DNA of 42,359 nt from Candidatus Gastranaerophilales bacterium (GTDB lineage: Bacteria > Cyanobacteriota > Vampirovibrionia > Gastranaerophilales > Gastranaerophilaceae): contig CALUYU010000015.1 of the NCBI GenBank assembly GCA_944325075.1, positions 1 to 42,359 of the forward strand. Direction: 5' to 3'. Under the pieces are notes generated by a model, which saw only the letters and a program-made list of their open reading frames with translations, searched no databases and was not told the DNA's origin. Numbering within the stretch: position 1 is the first letter of the stretch; each line of letters starts with the position of its first letter. The position numbers and the translations under genes were made by a program. Below, one piece after another: positions 3,258 through 39,473 of the stretch.

Positions 3258-3290
3258 AAAAAAAAAGGCCGACTTTCGTCAGCCTTTTTA
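3258..3290 (-). terminator. Terminator of tRNA-Pro transcript
   Basis: On the minus strand AAAGGCTGAC-GAAA-GTCGGCCTTT forms a stable stem with a GAAA tetraloop followed by a run of T. It begins a few bases after the encoded CCA of tRNA-Pro. Confidence 0.85.
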
Positions 3291-3292
3291 AA

Positions 3293-3369
3293 TGGTCGGG
3301 ATGACACGATTTGAACGTGCGACCCCCTCGTCCCAAGCGAGGTGCGCTACCAAACTGCGCCACATCCCG
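3293..3369 (-). tRNA. tRNA-Pro (anticodon UGG)
   Basis: The minus strand folds as a full cloverleaf: acceptor CGGGATG/CATCCCG, D stem GCGC/GCGC, anticodon stem CCTCG/CGAGG with loop CTTGGGA (anticodon TGG, reading CCA), T stem GCACG/CGTGT with TTCAAAT, then discriminator A and an encoded CCA. It reads proline codons. The nearest promoter on this strand is about 320 bp upstream, beyond three repeats that copy the tRNA's first 19 nt, so the precursor has an unusually long leader. Confidence 0.95.
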
Positions 3370-3668
3370 ATATTCAATTTTCAATTATGTAGCGCACCCA
3401 CGGTGCTACCTCTCACAAAACAATACTTAATTGTTTTGTTCGGCAGAGTCAAACTGCGCCACATCCCGGTATTTAGTTTTCAAATTATGTAGCGCACCTA
3501 CGGTGCTACCTCTCACAAAACAATACTTAATTGTTTTGTTCGGCAGAGTCAAACTGCGCCACATCCCGGTATTTAGTTTTCAAATTATGTAGCGCACCTA
3601 CGGTGCTACCTCTCACAAAACAATACTTAATTGTTTTGTTCGGCAGAGTCAAACTGCGCCACATCCCG
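3370..3668 (-). repeat. Three ~100-bp tandem repeats carrying the tRNA-Pro 5' end
   Basis: The 19-nt 5' end of tRNA-Pro (minus-strand CGGGATGTGGCGCAGTTTG) recurs at 3450-3468, 3550-3568 and 3650-3668, giving periods of 99, 100 and 100 bp. Between copies lie ~81 nt with two hairpins: a perfect ACAAAACAAT-TAAGT-ATTGTTTTGT stem and a D-arm-like GGTAGCACC...GGTGCGCTAC stem. The two units farther from the tRNA are identical; the one next to it has diverged slightly. The block lies between the promoter at 3691 and the intact tRNA, so it should be transcribed. The 561 bp up to yidC otherwise hold only this promoter, a T-rich tract (3721-3830) and the yidC promoter region. Confidence 0.9.
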
Positions 3669-3690
3669 ATTATTATCGGTCACAAGTTTT

Positions 3691-3719
3691 ATTCTATGCA
3701 AAACATTTTTTTTCGTCAA
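3691..3719 (-). promoter_or_regulatory. Promoter of the repeat/tRNA-Pro unit
   Basis: Minus strand: -35 TTGACG, 17-bp spacer, -10 TAGAAT. Transcription would start near 3684, just before the first tRNA 5'-end copy, run through the three repeats and the tRNA, and stop at 3258. Confidence 0.65.
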
Positions 3720-39369: not shown

Positions 39370-39422
39370 GCTATCCTTTGAGTGTTCCGGCTTTTACGGC
39401 TGCGGCTACAGCTGAAGATTTT
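39370..39422 (-). other. Possible short leader ORF and structured 5' UTR
   Basis: In the ~145-nt leader of the CPHG operon a GTG preceded by AGAGGA could open a ~25-residue Arg/Ser-rich peptide (MKIFSCSRSRKSRN...) whose end reaches the 39342-39368 hairpin. GC-rich words (GTAGCCGCAGCC, GCCGG) in this otherwise AT-rich leader suggest structure. No known riboswitch consensus fits. Start and end are approximate. Confidence 0.25.
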
Positions 39423-39444
39423 CACTTCATTTCCTCTTATCTTA

Positions 39445-39473
39445 ATCCTATGATAAGGTATTACCCATGTCAA
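39445..39473 (-). promoter_or_regulatory. Promoter of the CPHG-protein operon
   Basis: TTGACA, 17-bp spacer, TAGGAT. The start point near 39438 gives an unusually long leader (~145 nt) for this window. Confidence 0.7.

Follow-up and report, generated by a model that had tools for sequence, protein, structure and literature searches.

Insertions are not normally tolerated in essential single-copy genes. In the window analysed here, a stretch of 42,359 nucleotides from the genome of a Candidatus Gastranaerophilales bacterium (G000), three units of about 100 bp lie on the minus strand between the promoter and an intact tRNA-Pro(TGG) gene, and the 19-nt 5' end of this tRNA opens each of them. Of the 39 distinct tRNA genes that we read in G000, only one is a Pro(TGG) gene, and this intact copy is therefore probably essential. 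How did such units come to stand in front of such a gene, and what are they made of?

The tRNA-Pro(TGG) locus

The intact tRNA-Pro(TGG) gene, whose CCA end is encoded, is found at 3369..3293 on the minus strand and is the sole tRNA gene in the window (ARAGORN; Rfam RF00005, 63.9 bits). A preliminary description of this DNA had the first 19 nt of the gene recurring three times upstream at 99-100-bp spacing, which is borne out: the partial copies 1, 2 and 3 occur on the minus strand at 3668-3650, 3568-3550 and 3468-3450, with spacings, counted outwards from the gene, of 99, 100 and 100. Tandem Repeats Finder reports the array at 3351-3668 with a period of 100, 3.2 copies, 97% matches and a score of 601, values which place it far beyond chance. 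The array units of the window are 92-97% identical to the reference copy.

The same description had placed a promoter beyond the array and a terminator after the tRNA, and both were found. TTGACG-17-TAGAAT, at 3719..3691 on the minus strand, is the only promoter-like match on either strand between 3200 and 3900 (1 observed vs 2.0 expected in shuffles), and both it and the intrinsic terminator at 3289..3262, on the same strand, are consensus matches only. The position and sequence of this native tRNA-Pro promoter are conserved among relatives, including those with empty sites. It is followed by the native leader (3690..3669, minus strand), whose junction with partial copy 1 is the same as its junction with the tRNA at empty sites (L268 of G010 being empty and L269 of G006 filled). 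One promoter-like site and one terminator are compatible with a single transcript, and the predicted fold of this whole transcript is better than that of shuffles (z -7.55). As read from these signals, transcription from the native promoter probably carries through the array, which would form a long leader. When the Rfam 15 covariance models are applied to the array region, the tRNA alone reaches the gathering score, and no other known structured RNA is found there. Elsewhere in the window, an AdoCbl-II (cobalamin) riboswitch scores above the gathering score at 39377-39446 on the minus strand.

Composition of the units and the palindromic element E

Each unit consists, in order, of the tRNA 5' end, an A, a 40-nt palindrome that we call E (CTCTGCCGAACAAAACAATTAAGTATTGTTTTGTGAGAGG), part of the tRNA D-arm, an inverted copy of that part, and a spacer, for example TTGAAAACTAAATA. 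The three copies of E occupy 3648..3609, 3548..3509 and 3448..3409 on the minus strand in units 1, 2 and 3, respectively. In the unit nearest the tRNA, the part that follows E (3408..3370, minus strand) comprises a remnant of the 3' half of the D-arm, the inverted copy GGTGCGCTAC and the spacer TTGAAAATTGAATAT. E has the layout CTCTGCCGA-stem-GAGAGG and stands at the tRNA D-arm, more specifically at the TTTG|GTAGCGC junction of the tRNA-Pro sequence within the unit. The insert of about 81 nt is thus a composite of a genome-wide 40-nt palindrome and a part particular to this tRNA (3408-3370 in the unit nearest it). The earlier proposal of an 81-nt element inserted at the D-loop position therefore stands in part: the insert does lie at the D-arm position of a partial copy, the gene is intact and the units are in tandem, but the mobile-looking part is the 40-nt palindrome.

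Among distinct copies, E measures 36-46 nt. The stem covaries: in 115 distinct E, whose foot is fixed by the search pattern and whose stem varies with compensation, the outer six positions are Watson-Crick paired at a frequency of 0.939, vs a mean of 0.697 and a maximum of 0.733 for shuffled partners. The sequence of E also holds a candidate k-turn-like pattern, CUC-UGCC-GA...GA-GAG. E is dispersed; in the window's own genome, it is also found in partial copies before tRNA-Leu(TAG), tRNA-Pro(CGG) and tRNA-Ile(GAT), as well as at solitary sites. It further occurs in the loops of other palindromic repeats, where it is able to replace a few bases. Indeed, when an E-free version of one repeat (L160) is set against E-bearing versions (L075 and L134), E stands for 5 nt, so that it swaps out a few target bases and no clean insertion is seen. 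In the relative G016, E is found inside large nested composite intergenic repeats a few hundred bases long (L245-L260).

Empty and filled sites

Within the genus, the tRNA-Pro(TGG) locus lacks a partial copy in G010, G009 and G008 and carries units in G000 and G006, the contig of G006 ending within its first unit. In G010 the native promoter and its leader (CTTGTGACCGA or near variants) run directly into the tRNA; in G000 and G006 they run directly into partial copy 1. The leader junction is 20 to 22 nt away from the -10 box in all three. In G000, a new spacer precedes the displaced intact tRNA. Because the leader abuts the first copy and the intact tRNA is displaced, the structure is leader-T-insert-T-rest, where T is the tRNA end. 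Of 29 tRNA-Pro loci inspected by eye, 8 lack a partial copy, and at least 4 sequence types are represented among the inserts of the others; one relative (L273) has a run of N within its array. The link between the repeat and tRNA-Pro, whose absence from relatives was named at the outset as the finding that would speak against it, is thus present in relatives, with empty and filled sites at the same tRNA.

Distribution of E and its link to tRNA genes

With a looser pattern, E is found in 36 of 57 relative genomes, vs 0/57 for the reversed control pattern. In a sample of the phylum, the E pattern is matched in 138/292 genomes, mostly of the window's family, with a maximum of 86 copies (G195); the listed matches outside the window's family and order have no obvious stem. 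G016 holds 44 copies. An exact-pattern scan of named genomes gave at least 80 loci among the matches listed, under titles of Candidatus Gastranaerophilales, Melainabacteria, Cyanobacteria and unnamed uncultured bacteria, plus one of Acinetobacter (L112), which is probably a mislabelled metagenome-assembled genome.

We fetched 118 loci with 156 E. Counting as near any E at most 350 nt from a tRNA predicted by ARAGORN, 72 of the 156 are near one, vs 152 of 2360 positions drawn at random from these loci (Fisher p 2.8e-38); this proximity count covers all 118 loci, and one locus listing covers 80 of them. The orientation is polar, the tRNA being 3' of E on the strand of E in 68 of the 72 tRNA-linked copies. 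The tRNA is on the same strand in 57 of those 68, with the unit upstream and the 5' end copied, and on the opposite strand in 11, with the unit downstream and the 3' end copied. The left flank of E matches the nearby tRNA in 61/72. The tRNAs concerned are Val, Leu, Lys, Ile, Pro, Arg, Met, Gln, Glu, Thr and Phe, and the tRNA-Met of G016 (L263) has both a 5' unit and a 3' unit, the E of each oriented toward the tRNA.

Copies of tRNA ends surveyed without regard to E

We searched 500 nt on each side of every distinct fetched tRNA gene for 13-nt copies of its ends with at most 1 mismatch, counting identical tRNA sequences once and masking other tRNAs in the flanks. Outward copies, that is, 5' ends upstream or 3' ends downstream, accompany 10 of 39 tRNA genes in G000, a strict count that misses the Pro(CGG) and Leu(TAG) arrays visible by eye in this genome. 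They accompany 12/32 genes in G016 (same order; best 30 of 37 loci) and 3/32 in G044 (same order; best 30 of 43 loci). None was found at 31 genes of G017 (same family; best 30 of 43 loci) or at 30 genes of G056 (same class; best 30 of 42 loci). The four control classes (5' copies downstream, 3' copies upstream, and reverse-complement copies on either side) gave 0 in all five genomes. Both gene ends are copied; 3' ends recur downstream of other tRNAs in the window's own genome, so that the 5' copying at tRNA-Pro is not special, contrary to the preliminary description.

Most of the surveyed units hold inserts other than E, which makes E a frequent passenger rather than the sole cause of the copies. 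Conversely, G017 has E at 3 sites, yet tRNA end copies were not found there, and on this absence we argue that the tRNA-Pro array is dispensable. By eye, the downstream units at Thr(CGT) (L175), Glu(CTC) (L201) and Ser(GGA) (L205) of the window's own genome seemingly have a common insert family, with an TATGCAAGGCT-like stretch. At Tyr (L172), the downstream unit stands behind a terminator-like hairpin. Longer parts of the tRNA, including the anticodon arm, are kept in some units (Met L176, Arg L186), and the Ile and Thr units have remnants of other tRNA arms. Since several arrays of the same kind stop at contig ends (C25 at both ends, C2 and C64), copy numbers in these draft genomes are lower bounds.

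Inverted copies and pairing

Inverted pieces of the tRNA end, of at least 10 nt exact, are enriched beside the copies. They accompany 11 of 28 genes with upstream copies vs 3 of 105 genes without (p 1.4e-6), and, on the downstream side, 6 of 17 vs 8 of 115 (p 0.003). In G016 these pieces reach 17 nt at Arg(CCG) and 16 nt at Asp, and some units of relatives hold 13-17 nt of exact antisense to the 5' part of the tRNA. In the window, AUGUGGCGCA is able to pair with UGCGCUACAU. A rule by which the tRNA copy pairs with the part after E to close a stem is not general: against mismatched controls, 51 units (tRNA downstream within 350 nt, flank score of at least 8, duplicates removed) have a median rank of 0.43, with 5/51 in the top 5%. 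Its weaker form, the enrichment of inverted end copies near units, holds. The inverted copies fit fold-back copying or hairpin-directed insertion.

Search for a mobilising enzyme

Neither of two candidate enzymes is associated with E. E is found in 7/13 genomes with a Y1 (RAYT/IS200-type) transposase and in 17/25 without, and in 13/18 genomes with a reverse transcriptase and in 11/20 without, G016 with its 44 copies being among those without. Judging representatives by eye, we find no recurrent transposase- or recombinase-like open reading frame near E. By GC skew there is no bias towards the lagging strand of the kind seen for single-strand transposons (22/43 and 34/65 loci). The GTAG foot lies within 8 nt to the left of the 5' end of E in 9/72 tRNA-linked copies and 3/84 others; to the right it is found in 40/72 and 16/84, respectively, and in the tRNA units this right-hand GTAG is the tRNA's own GGTAG.

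Origin of the units

On balance, we favour the reading that the array consists of lineage-specific hairpin units gathered at the outer ends of tRNAs, formed as an insert enters, the terminus is duplicated, E joins and the units multiply. A hairpin insert would enter a tRNA gene at one end, and the terminus T would be duplicated. Of the two T copies in the resulting flank-T-insert-T-rest, the outer one is partial and can be spared, and the inner one makes the gene complete. E, a separate mobile palindrome, would often settle in the stem-loop of the outer copy that comes first (the D-arm from the 5' side, the T-arm from the 3' side), almost always facing the intact gene. The units could then have been multiplied by unequal exchange or by repeated insertion. 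The hairpin insert itself is best read as lineage-specific, and either mobile or recurrently generated. The first unit would have been made by insertion and not by plain duplication, in a process that presumably acts on DNA, through hairpin-directed insertion or template switching, and we infer that the units are selfish or neutral and not useful to the host. Selection may explain why only outward ends are seen, since a duplication that broke the tRNA would be lost. Symmetric target duplication does not account for the fact that E points one way, which therefore calls for a polar process. Several observations weigh against the favoured reading: among the representatives judged by eye, no transposase-like frame recurs near E; neither Y1 transposase nor reverse transcriptase tracks E; most surveyed units have other inserts; E takes the place of a few target bases; GC skew reveals no strand bias; and G017 has E but no tRNA end copies were found in it. 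A bolder version, which we consider doubtful, would make these units a new class of noncoding mobile hairpin that inserts into stem-loops, duplicates the gene terminus as a direct and an inverted copy through polar copying, and can settle at either end of an essential, single-copy tRNA gene while leaving it functional, its arrays joining the tRNA leader.

The main rival remains plain tandem duplication of tRNA genes or their ends, by slippage or unequal crossing-over, with outer copies that decay and gather dispersed palindromes and with no dedicated insertion mechanism. The 92-97% identity of the window units to the reference copy is what recent unequal exchange would give, and the longer tRNA parts kept in some units (Met L176 and Arg L186, both with the anticodon arm, and the Ile and Thr units) also point this way. 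Decay of full duplicates, however, should leave random parts, whereas only the outward-facing terminus is kept and the opposite classes are 0 in all controls; the inverted end copies are left unexplained, and the leader is outside the repeat when empty and filled sites are compared. We therefore regard this origin as unlikely, if still to be reckoned with. It is clearly improbable that the units are remnants or minimal cassettes of site-specific integrative elements with the tRNA terminus as att site, where the gene would be restored by a crossover within T and arrays would grow through successive integrations. Although flank-T-insert-T-rest is also the product of Campbell integration, the units are gene-free and about 90-200 bp long. 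Attachment sites usually lie at the 3' end of tRNAs, a point that we count against such cassettes, whereas copies occur here at both ends, with a similar look at the starts of FTLAE prepilin genes. Many islands at a single RNA gene are known, on the other hand, from the ssrA islands, as far as that account describes them (PMC3146451).

The leader array might instead regulate tRNA-Pro: three strands (the T copy, the inverted GGTGCGCTAC and the authentic 5' part of the tRNA) would compete for pairing and so tune processing or transcription. Probable transcription from the native promoter, the strong predicted fold, the AUGUGGCGCA/UGCGCUACAU pairing in the window and the 13-17 nt of exact antisense in some relatives' units would agree with such a role. 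We nevertheless consider it very improbable, given that the tRNA copy and the sequence beyond E do not pair as a general rule (5/51 in the top 5%), that units are absent at 8 of 29 tRNA-Pro loci by eye and at 31/31 tRNA genes of G017 (best 30 of 43 loci), and that downstream units can stand behind a terminator-like hairpin, as at Tyr L172. The preliminary description supposed that tRNA-half decoys in the transcript could affect RNase P processing or aminoacylation; no sign of a function was seen. An artefact of assembly or binning is hardly credible: these are draft genomes, several arrays end at contig ends and a run of N lies inside the L273 array, but the same structure recurs with different sequences in many genomes, the control classes are 0 and the array of the window is contig-internal.

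Comparison with known systems

Rickettsia palindromic elements and the double-hairpin elements of fungal mitochondria are mobile palindromes that enter RNA or protein genes and other palindromes and are tolerated by virtue of their structure. By this analogy, our units would differ in that the end of the gene hit is duplicated, the gene stays intact and tandem arrays are formed. Direct repeats of a gene end are typical of integrative elements in tRNA and tmRNA genes, and here, too, such repeats flank the insert and the gene is intact. The ssrA islands of Dehalococcoides are described as integrative elements at the end of one intact tmRNA gene (PMC3146451). Set against islands as portrayed there, the units are small (about 90-200 bp), have no genes, concern both 5' and 3' ends, and carry a palindrome within the partial copy.

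REP sequences, with their RAYT partners, are characterised as short, dispersed, imperfect palindromes that are lineage-specific, mostly extragenic and thought to be mobile (PMC3733652, PMC2817692). As far as these accounts go, E resembles REP in being a lineage-specific palindrome dispersed in tens of copies, its size and copy number (36-46 nt; 44 in G016, 86 in G195) agreeing with the 20-40 bp size and copy criterion. Within the same accounts, E differs from the REP/RAYT system in having no GTAG foot at its 5' end and no obligate Y1/RAYT partner, and from REP in its strong link to partial tRNA ends, its one-way orientation and its direct tandem arrays, in place of inverted dimers. By analogy, the units may act like REP- or MITE-type palindromes combined with the gene-end regeneration of integrative elements.

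No description of tRNA-end arrays or palindromes in Gastranaerophilales was found in the open-access literature, and hairpin units with end copies at intact tRNA genes look like a route, so far undescribed, by which tiny mobile DNA could establish itself at essential genes and leave them unbroken. If true, an element that supplies a replacement gene end, at both tRNA ends and perhaps at prepilin starts, would represent a new safe-address lifestyle for tiny mobile DNA. It would also account for the fast-changing intergenic regions and assembly breaks of these gut bacteria, and it makes testable predictions on orientation, empty sites and transcripts. Should the leaders have an effect, they would add a new layer of tRNA regulation.

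Repeats at prepilin gene starts

Two further repeats lie near the beginning of the window. At 234-361, the start of an FTLAE prepilin gene is present in three in-frame copies with 54-bp spacing, which have the look of T-insert-T, and similar arrangements occur in L056 and L140. At 21-170, palindromic repeats GTAGGTTGGG..CCCAACCTAC are found in both orientations within the beginning of that same prepilin open frame.
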